In this document: piece after piece, positions 249 to 5,010 of the stretch
Layout: every line of letters starts with the position of its first letter
Numbering within the stretch: position 1 is the first letter of the stretch
Origin: Candidatus Saccharimonadota bacterium
GTDB lineage: Bacteria; Patescibacteria; Saccharimonadia; Saccharimonadales; Nanosyncoccaceae
Assembly (NCBI GenBank): GCA_017429465.1
Contig: JAFROU010000006.1
Location: 1-5,215 of the forward strand
Direction of reading: 5' to 3'
Length of the DNA stretch: 5,215 nucleotides
The notes under the pieces: generated by a model
Told to the model about the DNA's origin: nothing
Databases searched by the model: none
What the model saw: the letters and a program-made list of their open reading frames with translations, nothing else
Made by a program: the position numbers and the translations under genes

Positions 249-749
249 ATGAGCGAATTACAGTTCGATGGGCAACGTAAAGGCGAAAATTTGGTCTTTA
301 TTTTTCGCCGACATATCTTAACGGCGCGTAAGGGACTGATTTTTATGCTGATTATGACCGCGCTCGGAATGGCGCCACTATTACTTTGGCCGGGGAATAG
401 CTACATGTTTTGGGTATTTCTGGGCTGTATATTTATTGGTGTTTTGGGGCTGATTTATGCTTACATGATGTGGTATTTCTCGATTTATATTGTGACTGAT
501 CAGAGATTGAGACAGATTTCACAAAAGGGTCTTTGGAAGAAGACTGTGGTAGATCTTGGGATTGATAAGATTCAGAGTATCTCTTACCAGGTACCAGGGT
601 TCTTTGGTGGAATCTTTGGCTATGGTACAATACTTGTTCAGACGGCAGTGGGGGATTTGATTATCAGTAACGTTTCAAAGCCTGAGAAAGTATATAATAA
701 GTTGCAGAATGTAACAGGGAAGGTAAACCATGGAAATTCCAAAGCTTAA
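249..749 (+). CDS. two-helix membrane protein with bacterial PH domain (bPH2/DUF304-like)
   Basis: The 166-residue protein begins with a short soluble stretch (1-27) containing the FRRH motif often seen before the first helix in this family. Two membrane segments follow at about 28-47 and 53-77. After them comes a bacterial pleckstrin-homology-like domain (about 78-152): the IVTDQRLRQ strand, GLWKKTVVDLGIDKIQSI, and a glycine-rich turn ending in GTILV. Proteins of this type are small envelope proteins of unknown biochemical role; the domain is thought to face the cytoplasm. The ATG at 249 is preferred because the family-like sequence begins within 15 residues and the next ATG is inside the first helix. 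The start is probably leaderless. It overlaps the next gene by 20 nt, implying a coupled operon with the SurA-like foldase. The family assignment is firm; the molecular function is not known. Confidence 0.85.
   Translation: MSELQFDGQRKGENLVFIFRRHILTARKGLIFMLIMTALGMAPLLLWPGNSYMFWVFLGCIFIGVLGLIYAYMMWYFSIYIVTDQRLRQISQKGLWKKTVVDLGIDKIQSISYQVPGFFGGIFGYGTILVQTAVGDLIISNVSKPEKVYNKLQNVTGKVNHGNSKA
716..723 (+). promoter_or_regulatory. ribosome binding site for the SurA-like gene
   Basis: AGGGAAGG ends 6 nt before the ATG at 730 and lies inside the end of the PH-domain gene. It supports ATG 730 as the start, although this makes the two genes overlap by 20 nt. Confidence 0.65.
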
Positions 750-1800
750 AAAGGAACCGGAAAAAGAAGACACTAAGAAGACCGAGCAAGAAAAGGTCGA
801 AGAGCGTCGTGAAGAGGTTCTAGCAAGGGGACGCAAGTTTAAGTATCCGCTACAATATGCCAAGCATAGGTTGATGATTAATACAATTATTATTTCGGTA
901 GTGGTGGTAGCCGCGCTAGTGTTTTCTGGCTGGTTGGCTTTATTTAAATTCCATGCAACTGGAGATGTGATTTATCGCATTACTACAGTTTTGCCAGTAT
1001 CCGTGGCGGAAGTTGATGGTGAGAAGGTGCGCTTTTCGGATTACTTGATGATTTATCGTAGCGCAATTTCGGCTGTGGAACAACAAATTGAACAGCTTGG
1101 TACAGACACAAATTTGAAGGATCTTGAAACGCAATATCAGCAGATGGCTTTAGCTTCGGCAGAAGAATATGCATACGCGCTAAAACTAGCTAGGGAACAA
1201 GAAATTGAAGTGACTGACGAAGAGGTTGCGGAGTCGTTCGTTGAACATCGTAAAGTTGGTGGTGTGGAGCGTAGCGAAGAATCGTTCTTAAAGATTTTAA
1301 GCGATAATTTTAATCTATCTAAGTCTGAATATGAGAGAATGATATATCTATCACTCGTAAAAATGAAGGTTGAACAGTTTATTGATGAAAACGCTAATTC
1401 TATAGTCAGCCAGGTAGAGACGATGCTTCAAAGTAATGGTTCAAATTATGCTGCGGTAAAGACGGCTTTGGGTGATGCGGTGGAATATGAGGAGACCGGC
1501 GGCCTGGTTGATAGTAAGAACGTTGACGGTGGACGTGCCAGCAAAGCAATAATGCTTGAAGCCGGGGCTGATAGCGGTAAATTTTTGTCCAGCAATGGTG
1601 ATGGTTACTACTTTGTTAAACTATTATCTAAGGATAGTACACAAGTTAATTACGTTTCAATTAAGGTGCCGTTTTCTGAGTTCAATAACAGAATGGATAA
1701 GATTCGCGAAGAAGGTTTAGTAAAAGAATATATTAAGTTTGAAGAACCTGAACCAGAAGAAACCACCGAGTCTGAACAGGGCGCTTCGGTCGAAGAATAG
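730..1800 (+). CDS. membrane-anchored SurA/PrsA-like foldase, degenerate parvulin
   Basis: This 356-residue protein has a charged Lys/Glu-rich cytoplasmic head (1-47), a single membrane helix (about 49-72) and a long extracytoplasmic part. Residues about 88-215 look like the helical SurA N-terminal chaperone region: VAEVDGEKVRFSDYL matches the usual opening of that domain, followed by long helices with TDEEV and SKSEYERM segments. Residues about 220-315 resemble a parvulin peptidyl-prolyl isomerase domain in outline (GGLVDSKN, then GDGYYFVKLLSK near its end). It is short and poorly conserved, so isomerase activity is uncertain. The tail (336-356) is strongly acidic. Its likely role is helping exported proteins fold at the outer face of the membrane. 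It is the second gene of an operon with the PH-domain protein. No terminator is seen before tRNA-Gly 25 nt downstream, so readthrough into the tRNA and the HdeD-family gene is possible. Confidence 0.8.
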   Translation: MEIPKLKKEPEKEDTKKTEQEKVEERREEVLARGRKFKYPLQYAKHRLMINTIIISVVVVAALVFSGWLALFKFHATGDVIYRITTVLPVSVAEVDGEKVRFSDYLMIYRSAISAVEQQIEQLGTDTNLKDLETQYQQMALASAEEYAYALKLAREQEIEVTDEEVAESFVEHRKVGGVERSEESFLKILSDNFNLSKSEYERMIYLSLVKMKVEQFIDENANSIVSQVETMLQSNGSNYAAVKTALGDAVEYEETGGLVDSKNVDGGRASKAIMLEAGADSGKFLSSNGDGYYFVKLLSKDSTQVNYVSIKVPFSEFNNRMDKIREEGLVKEYIKFEEPEPEETTESEQGASVEE

Positions 1801-1917: not shown

Positions 1918-2577
1918 ATGGTTAAAGATGCACTAGATATTATAAAAAACCCGATTCGAGAAGCGGGTGATACTCTTAAAAAGAATGCTTGGGTATCGGT
2001 ACTAGAATCGATTATTACAATCGTATTTGGTATTCTTTTAGTGGCTTTTAGCGAGAGCGTCGTAAAGATTGTTGCTATTATTATTGGTGTTTTCTTTGTG
2101 ATTAAAGGTGCATATCAGATTATTAATTATTATCTCGAAAAGGGCGATCGCGATATTTTTAATAATAATTTACTCTGGGGCGTTATTTCAGTTTTGATTG
2201 GCGCGGCGGTACTCATTGCTGGCCCAAGTATTATTGGTGTATTCCGTATTATTATGGGCGTGTGGTTGATCTATAGCGGTTTAGTACGCATGAATACGGC
2301 ATTAAAGCTCCATACGGCCAACGTAAAGGTATGGCGTTATGTTTTATTAATTGCCTTGGCTGAACTACTACTTGGCATTTTTATCACCTTCTATGATGGT
2401 GCAGTTGTAGCACTAATCGGCTGGGTATTAATAGTTTCTGGCGTGATTAGCATTATGAGTGATGTAATGTTTATTCAAAACCTAGACGTTGTGCTTGAAA
2501 AGGTGGCGAATTTTGGTAAATCTACGGATAAGAAGAAGCACAATCCAGAAGACATTAAAGAAGCCGAAACCAAGTAG
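1918..2577 (+). CDS. HdeD-family (DUF308) six-helix membrane protein
   Basis: The 219-residue protein has an amphipathic head (1-24) and then six membrane segments at about 25-45, 49-72, 84-101, 105-123, 139-158 and 160-185. The repeated pattern, hydrophobic stretch plus G(I/V)xxxxxG/A followed by polar loops such as YYLEKGDRD, is that of the HdeD/DUF308 family. That family is named after an E. coli acid-resistance membrane protein; its biochemical function is unknown, and acid resistance here would be a guess. The tail (187-219) is cytoplasmic and highly charged, with a KKK run and EDIKEAETK at the end. The gene has a strong ribosome binding site and no promoter of its own, so it is probably transcribed with tRNA-Gly. 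Its last 96 nt overlap the end of the - strand surface-protein gene. No intrinsic terminator is visible downstream. Confidence 0.88.
   Translation: MVKDALDIIKNPIREAGDTLKKNAWVSVLESIITIVFGILLVAFSESVVKIVAIIIGVFFVIKGAYQIINYYLEKGDRDIFNNNLLWGVISVLIGAAVLIAGPSIIGVFRIIMGVWLIYSGLVRMNTALKLHTANVKVWRYVLLIALAELLLGIFITFYDGAVVALIGWVLIVSGVISIMSDVMFIQNLDVVLEKVANFGKSTDKKKHNPEDIKEAETK
2482..2577. other. 96-nt convergent overlap of the HdeD-family and adhesin genes
   Basis: The two reading frames overlap tail to tail over 32 codons, both stop codons included, and the codons are exactly in register (each codon of one is the complement of a codon of the other). AAG/GAA (Lys/Glu) in the HdeD-family tail are CTT/TTC (Leu/Phe) in the adhesin helix. 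Each TAG stop is a CTA leucine codon in the partner gene. No intrinsic terminator for either gene is seen near the overlap. Confidence 0.9.
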
Positions 2578-5010
2578 ATATTGAGCCTTGGCGCTTGCTG
2601 GCTGATGAGTGATTAAACCGGTATCTGGTGTTTTGATGATTTTATTTTCGATTGTACCTAGATCAAGGGTGTTATCGATACTAGAATCGGAGTCTATGGT
2701 AAAGGTACGGGAGATTAGCTCATAGGCACCGTTATTGTTAGTGCGGAGTTCTTCAAGGTCATAAGTGCCATATGGTAGAGCAGCATAGTCATCGTTTACG
2801 GGAGCGGTATTACCGTCGGTGTCTTTACCAAACCAAATGCCGGCGGTTGGATCAAGCAGGGAAGGATCAATTACACCAGCTTCAGTGAGAGCGTCTTCGG
2901 TAAGGGCGATGTCATTAAAGTTGGTGTTACTACTGTGTCTAGTTGCACCAGTATTTATAATACCGTCCTCGTTTGTAACGACAATGTGTGTTTCGCCCGT
3001 TTCTTTTTGAGTAATCTTAAAGACAATTCCAGCAAATGGTTTATCTTCGTCGTCGGTTTTAATGAGCTTCAAGTCATTGCGCTTAATGCGGTTATAAAAG
3101 GCGTTGCCACTATCTAAGGTAACGGTTTCACCGTCGCTTTGGATGTTGAATTGCTTTTCGGAAGGATTAACGAGGTAAGAAGCAGAACTTGCAGTTTCGC
3201 TCAGGGTGTAGGAACCATATGGCAGGCCGCTGAGACTGGCCCAACCATCATGGACGGTTAGATTAAGTGAATCGCCAGGTTGATAGGTTCGACCATTAAT
3301 CATGACGGCATTAGTGGAACTGTTTTTTAGAGCGAAAGTAACTCCTTCGAAGCTACCGCCGCCAATCGGTGAGCATTGTCTGGTTTCGGCATCACATTTT
3401 TGGATACGGACATTGCCGCGAATGACTTGTTCGGAGAAGGAGTCGGTGGAGAGGTTTTTAACGATGCCATCATCCGAAGCAGAGATAGTAAAGTCGATAC
3501 GTTTATCGCTGATTTTATATCCAGTTGGGGCTTTAGTTTCTTTAATATAATAGCTGCCGATGGCAAGATCGTTTGTTCCGGTGCTGGCGGTGCCGGATGA
3601 GTTAGTAGTAATTGTCTTTACTGAAGTATTATCTGAACGGTAAATAGTGAATTCAGCGCCATCCAGTCTGGCGTTGCCTTGAGGAGAAGCTGAATTAAAG
3701 TCGGAATCAGTTTTTGAAATGCTGACGCCTCCAGCAATTGGTGTATCCGTGATCGAAATAAAGCCACTAGCGCCAGGAGTAAATTCGCTTGAAGCAATGT
3801 TATTATTTAGATGAAAACCTTTTGGCGCGGTAATTTCCTTAGCATAGTAAATACCAGCGGCAAGGGTAATTTTAGTGGTTGATTGGCCAGCGCTGTTCGT
3901 GGTGACGTTGCCAAGGATGGTATTGCAATTGGAGTCTCCGCAAATTTGGAATTCGGCACCATTTAGCTCGTAGTTACTGTTATTGTCGGTAGTTGATGGG
4001 GAACTACTAAGCTTTTGCACGCCAACTTCAACCATTTTTGGTAGATTAGAGACAGTGGCTGATTGAGTGGATCCAGAGGATACCACTACGGTGGTGACAG
4101 TGGTTGAGTCAAGATAATAACCGTTTGGTGGCTGGATTTCTTTAACATAATAGGTGCCAGGATCGAGACTGACGCTAACTGAACCGTTGGCACCAGTAAC
4201 AACTGATTGGACTAGCTGAGTGCAAGCGTAGTCGCTGTAGATGCCGTAGGTGGCACCGCTCGTAGTGTAATAAGAATTGCCATTAGTGACAGATGGATTA
4301 GCGCTAGTTTTAGTAATGGTAAGCGTTCCTGGATAGGTTGGGGCAACGTCTCTCGTGAGCCAGGCAACAAGCTGGAAATGAGGCGTATAATCGTCTTGAT
4401 AGCTATTGCCGGTTGCAATATGTAAGGTATAATCATCGATACCACTAAAATCAAAACCAGTACCATAATAAATGGCTTGGTGGGCACCAATCAGAGCGCT
4501 TTTTCCTGGGTCTTGCCAGATTAAATCAAGTAGAGAAGCGTCACTTGGATCAGATCCAACGCCGTCGCCAAAGTTTAGAAATAAACTGTGATAAATATTG
4601 ACGTAGGTATAACCACTGAGTTCTGGATAAAATGATTCTACTGCGCTTGGATTGGTTGTATAGAGATACATGACGCGCTTGACATAGGTGAGATTAAGAT
4701 TTCTTGAGTCGTAGGTTTCTTCAAAGTTTTGTTCTGGAAGCTTCTTTTCTGGACTAGCACAAAGGGCTTTGTTGCCGCCTACTTCTAGGTCAAAGGTATA
4801 GAGATTTACCCATTCGTAGTTAGCATTTTGATATTGTTTGTTACCATAGACTATCGGACTGCTGATGTGGCTGAAGGAAAGAGCGTGAGCGTTGTTTTCG
4901 GTATCGGTTTTATAAAAAAGGAAGTTAAAGCAGAGAAGAAAAGTTGTAATAAAAATAGCACCACCAATGAGCCAAGTTGCGAATAGACGGATGTAATTAT
5001 TGATTTTCAT
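2482..5010 (-). CDS. sortase-type surface adhesin: thioester domain plus five SpaA/Cna-B domains
   Basis: An exported 842-residue protein. Residues 8-33 are a hydrophobic signal segment with probable cleavage near AHA (41-43). Residues about 50-226 form a thioester (TED/TQXA-like) domain, with candidate Cys84 and Gln178. Five prealbumin-like SpaA/Cna-B domains follow (about 228-323, 327-424, 427-531, 533-641, 645-790), each with a Lys near its start and a Glu in the Y-x-x-x-E strand, the hallmarks of internal Lys-Asn/Asp isopeptide bonds. The last domain carries the GIWFG ... ALPYGTY ... EEL signature of VaFE-type surface proteins of Gram-positive bacteria. The end is a sortase-like anchor. 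Predicted role: a rigid stalk presenting a reactive thioester that could bond covalently to a partner surface. The ATG at 5010 is supported by the signal peptide and a promoter 27 nt upstream; no Shine-Dalgarno sequence is seen. The gene overlaps the HdeD-family gene tail to tail by 96 nt. Domain architecture is clear; the binding target is unknown. Confidence 0.9.
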   Translation of the reverse strand: MKINNYIRLFATWLIGGAIFITTFLLCFNFLFYKTDTENNAHALSFSHISSPIVYGNKQYQNANYEWVNLYTFDLEVGGNKALCASPEKKLPEQNFEETYDSRNLNLTYVKRVMYLYTTNPSAVESFYPELSGYTYVNIYHSLFLNFGDGVGSDPSDASLLDLIWQDPGKSALIGAHQAIYYGTGFDFSGIDDYTLHIATGNSYQDDYTPHFQLVAWLTRDVAPTYPGTLTITKTSANPSVTNGNSYYTTSGATYGIYSDYACTQLVQSVVTGANGSVSVSLDPGTYYVKEIQPPNGYYLDSTTVTTVVVSSGSTQSATVSNLPKMVEVGVQKLSSSPSTTDNNSNYELNGAEFQICGDSNCNTILGNVTTNSAGQSTTKITLAAGIYYAKEITAPKGFHLNNNIASSEFTPGASGFISITDTPIAGGVSISKTDSDFNSASPQGNARLDGAEFTIYRSDNTSVKTITTNSSGTASTGTNDLAIGSYYIKETKAPTGYKISDKRIDFTISASDDGIVKNLSTDSFSEQVIRGNVRIQKCDAETRQCSPIGGGSFEGVTFALKNSSTNAVMINGRTYQPGDSLNLTVHDGWASLSGLPYGSYTLSETASSASYLVNPSEKQFNIQSDGETVTLDSGNAFYNRIKRNDLKLIKTDDEDKPFAGIVFKITQKETGETHIVVTNEDGIINTGATRHSSNTNFNDIALTEDALTEAGVIDPSLLDPTAGIWFGKDTDGNTAPVNDDYAALPYGTYDLEELRTNNNGAYELISRTFTIDSDSSIDNTLDLGTIENKIIKTPDTGLITHQPASAKAQYLLGFGFFNVFWIVLLLIRRFTKIRHLFKHNV
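2485..2634 (-). other. sortase-like C-terminal anchor of the adhesin
   Basis: Residues 793-842 read KTPDTG (793-798), a 12-residue polar linker, a hydrophobic helix (about 811-828, YLLGFGFFNVFWIVLLLI) and a basic tail starting with RR and including several Lys/Arg/His. This is the order of an LPXTG cell-wall sorting signal with T in place of L; the linker before the helix is longer than usual. Sorting by a sortase is inferred, as no sortase gene lies in the window; it might instead stay as a plain membrane anchor. Confidence 0.7.
2641..4329 (-). repeat. five tandem SpaA/Cna-B stalk domains of the adhesin
   Basis: These are protein-level repeats, too diverged to be DNA repeats. Isopeptide candidates (Lys / Glu / acceptor) are K234/E291/N322, K333/E392/D422, K433/E491/none obvious (E527 at that place), K538/E605/N640 and K651/E754/N789. 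The glutamates align in G-x-Y-x-x-x-E (GTYYVKE, GIYYAKE, GSYYIKE, GSYTLSE, GTYDLEE). Domains 1-3 resemble each other most; domain 5 is the largest (about 146 residues) and of the VaFE type. Extra cysteines occur as pairs in domain 2 (C357, C362) and domain 4 (C539, C546) and singly in domain 1 (C263); the pairs could form disulfides outside the cell. Confidence 0.8.
4333..4863 (-). other. thioester (TED/TQXA-like) domain region of the adhesin
   Basis: This codes for residues about 50-226. Cys84 (codon 4759-4761) sits in ALCASPEK, matching the hydrophobic-Cys start of the TED motif. Gln178 (codon 4477-4479) sits in AHQAIYYGTG, matching the Q-x-A/hydrophobic-aromatic motif of TQXA domains, with His in place of the usual Thr. 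In known TEDs these two side chains form an internal thioester that reacts with amines on the target. Calling this a working thioester is inference from the residue pair and from the position ahead of SpaA stalk domains. Confidence 0.75.

Follow-up and report, generated by a model that had tools for sequence, protein, structure and literature searches.

The means by which epibiotic Patescibacteria attach to their hosts are still largely an open question. Type IV pili tether the epibiont, and a published model, in the portion of its text available to us, allows the direct bond itself to be made by "additional close-proximity adhesins" (PMC12206443). One gene in the 5,215-nucleotide stretch of DNA analysed here (hereafter the window) raises the question of whether such a bond could be covalent. 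In our main reading, to which we give a probability of roughly 0.8, it encodes a saccharibacterial adhesin of the TIE type (thioester, isopeptide, ester), anchored by sortase. An adhesin bearing a thioester domain (TED) would be a concrete candidate for the direct host bond, with one testable residue pair.

The Gene and Its Lineage

The adhesin gene starts with an ATG and runs through 842 codons on the minus strand (2482..5010). This open reading frame, proposed earlier from a sequence-only reading, is a real gene: its translation is identical to a public protein, P0001, save at residue 303, the sole difference between the two copies. P0001 was also the only match when residues 40–232 were searched against 5.8 billion proteins. 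No relatives appeared when viral contigs were scanned with the whole adhesin or genome contigs with its N-terminal domain, and none of the three genomes whose PH genes are most similar gave an adhesin match, an empty result that by itself carries no weight. Residues 1–43 (4882..5010, minus strand) look by eye like the signal peptide already proposed, with a hydrophobic core and an AHA-type site at the end.

The flanking genes speak for the lineage. A bPH_2 protein (249..749, plus strand; Pfam), taken as a lineage marker, has matches of 60–65% identity in three MAG contigs, two of them titled Saccharibacteria (65% and 60%) and one titled Nomurabacteria (62%), and a SurA_N-like protein (730..1800, plus strand; Pfam) shows 49–51% identity in the same three contigs. 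The guess of a saccharibacterial source thus holds, because the flanking PH-domain gene is this close to saccharibacterial MAG genes. The next gene, found in the list of open reading frames and by Pfam, encodes a DUF308 protein (1918..2577, plus strand); it meets the adhesin gene tail to tail, and the two share 96 bases at their 3′ ends.

The N-Terminal Domain

Family profiles, a structure model and fold matches all indicate that residues 44–226, approximately (4333..4881, minus strand), are most likely a TED. In structure searches, TED crystal structures came up as top matches, before all else, for the predicted folds of both the window domain and one relative, and 21 of the 23 relatives in one alignment (A2) matched Pfam TED_2 (PF20610) at E up to 1; both results favour the TED identity suspected from the sequence. 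The model of the window domain, built with the relatives as its alignment, is middling (pLDDT 64.1, pTM 0.63), and its TM-scores to TEDs are 0.42–0.43 by query length. In a scan of five full-length relatives, the TED_2 cut-off of 27 bits was passed by P0003, P0122 and L008; L012 reached 24.5, and L004 did not match TED_2 at E up to 0.001. The other TED model, PF08341, matched a single one of the 24 A2 members (E 0.032), and a profile comparison of A2 with the PF08341 protein P0068 gave a probability of 1.6%. Against PDB sequences, the family profile produced one weak match, the Cpa TED 4c0z (E 0.95).

The window protein itself matched neither TED model (PF20610, PF08341) at E up to 1. A profile made from the 23 relatives without the window nevertheless detected the window protein with a score of 18.0 bits (E 1.1e-4 in a set of 1123 sequences), against a best score of 9.4 bits for 1000 shuffles of the window domain, and by these profile scores its kinship with the family exceeds chance. 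When 122 SpaA proteins were tested with the family profile, 24 scored above the window protein, a count from which P0003, P0121 and P0122, already known to belong to the family, were set aside. Identity between the window domain and its 23 A2 relatives is only 13–22%; we counted this figure, the 24 higher-scoring SpaA proteins, the lack of a TED match of its own and the middling model with its TM-scores against the TIE adhesin reading.

The Candidate Thioester Residues

With the TED reading, the predicted thioester pair is most likely Cys84 (4759..4761, minus strand) and Gln213 (4372..4374, minus strand; FQLVAW), 129 residues apart. The sequence-only reading had also chosen Cys84, in surroundings that do prove TED-like: LCAS (83–86) fits the [YFL]C-hydrophobic-hydrophilic motif. 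The partner proposed there was Gln178 (4477..4479, minus strand), in a predicted helix whose AHQAIYY segment slightly resembles the TQxA helix motif. That pairing was not borne out, and we consider it hardly credible. Gln178 is not conserved, its column holding Gln in 2/24, 3/23 and 3/27 relatives in three overlapping alignments, whereas at Gln213 every relative with a residue there has Gln, just as every relative with a residue at the Cys84 column has Cys. Moreover, according to the available text of PMC4450167, the thioester bond does not depend on the glutamine of the TQxA motif, which is not the bond former. Range arithmetic on the fold matches points instead to Gln213 as the structural equivalent, since it coincides with the Gln that forms the bond in CpTIE and PnTIE; the same arithmetic missed the SfbI bond-forming Gln by one residue. 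His177 was also considered as a counterpart of the TQxA glutamine and discarded, the relatives having mostly Leu at that column.

The invariance of Cys and Gln in alignments A1 and A2 is partly by construction, because their rows were cut with patterns requiring Cys and Q...[WM]. A profile recount with a third alignment (A3), its profile itself made from pattern-chosen rows, covered 37 stretches once duplicates had been removed, with some domains split in two; it found Cys in 35 and Gln in 33, gaps in the remaining 2 and 4 respectively, and no other residue at either position. The most divergent A1 rows (L016, L019, L023, L025, L026, L027 and L028) are absent from A2 and A3. The relatives also share an invariant His, mostly in xHAxxG (23/23 A3 rows; 34/37 stretches in the profile recount, with a gap in 3), whose window counterpart is probably H141 (YHSL), on which the alignments disagree.

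A bond-forming TED Gln is described, in the accessible part of PMC4450167, as lying in a hydrophobic-Q-hydrophilic-hydrophobic-hydrophobic motif of predicted beta-sheet context, a motif that is weak by its authors' own word. At 212–216 the window protein reads FQLVA, with Leu in the hydrophilic position, and its relatives carry YQDIV-like motifs. The TQxx-hydrophobic-W helix motif occurs in most, not all, TEDs according to the same portion of PMC4450167, and in all predicted TEDs according to that of PMC6194298; the window protein has no TQ..W. This lack, the Leu in the Gln motif, the SfbI Gln off by one and a stalk domain without an acceptor (see below) were also counted against the TIE adhesin reading.

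The divergent window sequence, its non-standard Gln motif and the absence of TQ..W would suit a TED whose thioester is dead, the fold being a non-covalent binding module, or one whose bond is a structural lock only. We regard this as unlikely: Cys and Gln are never replaced in the family though window identity falls to 13–22%, and the role of the thioester in stability is said to be negligible in the available text of PMC6194298. Covalent capture by the candidate TED is, in our reading, likely.

Stalk and Sorting Tail

Pfam finds five SpaA stretches in the adhesin (E 2.3e-60), which we delimited by eye on the minus strand as SpaA/Cna-B domains 1 (residues about 227–326, 4033..4332; K234, E291, N322), 2 (about 327–425, 3736..4032; K333, E392, D422), 3 (about 426–531, 3418..3735; best Pfam stretch 444–514; K433, E491), 4 (about 532–645, 3076..3417; K538, E605, N640) and the large domain 5 (about 646–791, 2638..3075; K651, E754, N789). 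The five domains named earlier are thus all present, but their isopeptide residues, placed by eye, are complete in only four, domain 3 having Glu527 at the acceptor position. A TED at the far end of a stalk of isopeptide and/or ester domains is the TIE architecture; for the window protein, this reading is as secure as the TED assignment and no more.

The protein ends in the sortase-like tail noticed before (2482..2631, minus strand), made up, by reading, of TPDTG (794–798), a variant of the LPXTG-like motif, followed by a hydrophobic segment and a basic end. An xP[DEN]TG motif lies within the last 60 residues of 13/13 relatives with their C-terminus present, and 11 more run off their locus. 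Sortases occur in 71 of 72 Saccharimonadia genomes tested, the 36 TED-negative genomes of this sample having been taken in listing order, not at random.

A stalk with such a tail could also belong to an ordinary pilin or stalk protein without an adhesive tip, and the NCBIfam SpaH/EbpB pilin model does match the adhesin (E 1.3e-17). However, its 63.8 bits fall below the model cut-off of 95 bits, Pfam found no sortase among the four window ORFs scanned, and the N-terminal domain has a predicted TED fold, all of which make this explanation very improbable.

Distribution

A search across sampled Saccharimonadia found the TED domain family in 36 of 392 genomes, which puts a TED adhesin family in a Patescibacteria class, as the sequence-only reading had led one to look for; among 295 genomes of one family, no TED-bearing genome was added to those already found. 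Our literature search returned no paper treating both Saccharibacteria and the thioester domain, and by term search Saccharibacteria are absent from the accessible text of an isopeptide-bond paper (PMC12617251) and a fibrillar-adhesin paper (PMC8286594).

A Proposed Mechanism and Its Target

In the mechanism that we propose, the adhesin tail would be cut by a housekeeping sortase, and the five-Cna-B stalk, with four domains probably locked by internal isopeptide bonds, would hold a compact TED off the cell. Cys84 and Gln213 would form an internal thioester, open to attack by an amine, probably a lysine, of a target surface protein. The attack would leave an amide bond between Gln213 and the target, and therefore a permanent link.

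Our hypothesis for the target is the host bacterium. In its full form, the proposal is that some Saccharibacteria fasten irreversibly to their host through an amide bond that joins Gln213, in the TED of the stalk, to a lysine on a surface protein of the host. Host range would be set by the TED, its sequence diverging fast around a fixed Cys and Gln. We put this forward tentatively, at less than even odds. It is an equally tentative possibility that the same TED adhesin serves niche colonisation, with an animal gut or mucus protein, or a plant or environmental surface, as its target. The TED target named in the available text of PMC4450167 is an animal protein, fibrinogen, bound by SfbI; a near relative of the flanking gene (L001) comes from sheep ileum; and the domain is patchy, whereas a general means of host attachment would be expected in all of the 392 genomes and not in 36. 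Conversely, cell-cell conjugation in Bacillus subtilis is efficient only with a TED adhesin, whose C68S variant fails, as the accessible part of PMC8092201 reports, so TED proteins can serve bacterium-bacterium contact.

Comparison with Known Systems

One of the closest known systems is CpTIE-TED of Clostridium perfringens (PDB 5a0g, 5a0d), whose Cys and Gln are 129 residues apart, like Cys84 and Gln213, although the two domains share only 11–14% identity in alignments and the CpTIE source is a Firmicute. The Cpa and SfbI TEDs of Streptococcus pyogenes (4c0z, 2xi9, 5a0l) have the same fold as that predicted for the window domain, and likewise a Cys in a [YFL]C motif and a Gln near the C-terminal end of the domain. 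SfbI differs in its spacing of 152 (Cys109–Gln261) and in its known target, fibrinogen, both from the available text of PMC4450167. The pLS20 TIE protein of Bacillus subtilis, as described in the accessible part of PMC8092201, also has a TED tip on Cna domains and serves bacterium-bacterium contact, but its TED is of Class II and it lacks a sorting signal. Within Saccharibacteria, a VaFE-repeat surface protein (P0122) combines TED_2 with SpaA, while the window protein lies below TED_2 detection; T-Q ester domains (PF18202), present in all five full-length relatives scanned, are missing from the window protein. Taken with these systems, the adhesin is a known kind of protein, a TIE protein, in an unexpected lineage.

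A Probable Thioester Domain and Its Candidate Bond-Forming Glutamine

The open reading frame at 2482–5010 (minus strand) was confirmed, and its 842-residue product differs from the public copy, P0001, only at residue 303 (Thr in the window, Ala in P0001). This protein is well supported as a thioester domain (TED) adhesin, the kind of protein that a sequence-only reading had proposed.

Structural alignments, with their final nine or ten aligned positions assumed to be ungapped, place Gln213 on the bond-forming glutamines of CpTIE (residue 267, two entries) and PnTIE (residue 247), on residue 262 of SfbI, one position off Gln261, and on residue 575 of Cpa, which we take to be its bond glutamine. 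Under the same assumption, the corresponding Gln of L008, a full-length relative, falls on 267 of CpTIE (two entries), 247 of PnTIE, 262 of SfbI, and 575 (three entries) or 576 (one entry) of Cpa. The Cys84–Gln213 spacing of 129 residues equals that of CpTIE (138–267). Profile counts over 37 stretches of relatives show no residue other than Cys in the first column (gaps in 2) and none other than Gln in the second (gaps in 4). Gln178, previously paired with Cys84, lies within a helix of the structure model and is not conserved in the alignments of relatives, and it was rejected as the bond glutamine.

According to the available text of PMC4450167 and PMC6194298, the bond Cys of TEDs sits in a [YFL]C-hydrophobic-hydrophilic motif and the Gln in a weak hydrophobic-Q-hydrophilic-hydrophobic-hydrophobic one. 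A further helix motif, TQxx-hydrophobic-W, whose Gln and Trp are not essential, is attributed there to most (PMC4450167) or to all (PMC6194298) predicted TEDs. The window FQLVA (Gln213) matches the bond-Gln motif except for Leu at the hydrophilic place; relatives show YQDIV, VQDVV and similar. The helix motif is absent from the window protein; in the helix of the relatives an invariant His (23 of 23 rows of alignment A3; 34 of 37 stretches, with gaps in 3) probably replaces the TQ motif.

Relatives and Distribution

Of 392 genomes sampled from the class, 34 contain matches to the window protein at E up to 1e-3, mostly through the stalk. A phmmer-matching ORF was obtained from 24 of the 25 loci listed for this search, and in all 24 a Cys motif in the N-terminal domain is followed, 119–183 residues on, by Q...W directly before the stalk. 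A profile of this N-terminal domain (A1, window sequence included) found it in 36 of the 392 class genomes, in 29 of 295 from a single family (all of them already found), and in one of 379 drawn from the whole phylum (G033, also in the class sample). Pfam TED_2 matched four of these 379, one over the cut-off, and none of 14 control genomes. Among five full-length relatives scanned, all carry SpaA and T-Q ester domains, whereas the Pfam scan gave no T-Q match in the window protein; four match TED_2 (E up to 0.001), and in three of these the score exceeds the cut-off. The name given to P0122, a close relative of the family member P0003, reads “VaFE repeat-containing surface-anchored protein [Candidatus Saccharibacteria bacterium]”.

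Some genomes encode two or three TED-tipped proteins, as in G286 (contigs 38 and 48) and in G033, where some 2.5 kb of a single contig separate the starts of the two genes (L064 and L038). Three loci (L078, L079 and L080; ORFs of 1002–1919 aa) from further Saccharimonadia genomes (G036, G063, G066), with TED_2 matches below the cut-off and missed by the A1 search of the class genomes, are possibly a second TED group. On the profile of the Saccharibacterial relatives, the window domain (residues 63–127; 4630–4826) is outscored by 24 SpaA proteins not known to belong to the family; taken with the domain's 13–22% identity to its relatives, this low rank may reflect gene transfer or a TED branch of its own.

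Stalk and Cell Anchor

Isopeptide residues, placed by eye against neighbouring domains, form candidate triads in stalk domains 1 (K234/E291/N322), 2 (K333/E392/D422), 4 (K538/E605/N640) and 5 (K651/E754/N789). The earlier claim of isopeptide residues in five domains holds in full for four; the third has K433/E491, with Glu527 at the acceptor position. The cysteine pairs C357/C362 (domain 2) and C539/C546 (domain 4) are possible disulfides, and the relative L004 has KCDAETRAC at a comparable place.

The motif xP[DEN]TG occurs within the last 60 residues of all 13 relatives whose C-terminus lies inside the locus (11 of 24 run off it); by reading, a hydrophobic segment and then a basic end come after it. 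All 36 TED-positive genomes contain a sortase (PF04203), as do 35 of 36 TED-negative ones; it is therefore a housekeeping enzyme, present independently of the adhesin.

Gene Neighbourhood

The window also encodes bPH_2 (249–749, +), SurA_N-like (730–1800, +) and DUF308 (1918–2577, +) proteins and tRNA-Arg, tRNA-Gly and tRNA-Asp. Counterparts of the PH protein show 65% and 60% identity on two contigs with the title Candidatus Saccharibacteria and 62% on one titled Nomurabacteria, and the SurA-like protein is 49–51% identical across the same three. In the window the two genes (together 249–1800) overlap, and they are adjacent in all three contigs; in the Nomurabacteria-titled one the pair (62% and 49% identical to that of the window) resembles that of the Saccharibacterial contigs; the title of this contig may be wrong. 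DUF308 and the adhesin gave no tblastn match in these three loci, nor the adhesin any in the three genomes, so the locus seems variable. The 3′ ends of the adhesin and DUF308 genes overlap by 96 bases (2482–2577) on opposite strands, both frames being open throughout.

A Candidate Covalent Attachment Factor

The patchy occurrence of the TED favours an attachment factor specific to a host or niche over a universal one. Type IV pili have been shown to play a part in Saccharibacterial binding, and “close-proximity adhesins” are proposed to act after them (PMC12206443, available text); Tn-seq placed VCBS, dockerin and FnIII proteins among the essentials, and a term search of the main text available for that study gave no “thioester” (PMC10633639). 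Our literature search found no paper naming “thioester domain” together with either “Saccharibacteria” or “Patescibacteria”.

A covalent grip on the host bacterium is a good, if unproven, hypothesis. The thioester of SfbI is attacked by a fibrinogen lysine (PMC4450167, available text), and by analogy the tip Gln213 would form an amide bond with a target amine. The architecture of this adhesin is ordinary and its lineage unexpected; for contact between bacteria through a TED, a precedent is the TIE protein of pLS20, since conjugation is not efficient with its C68S variant (PMC8092201, available text).
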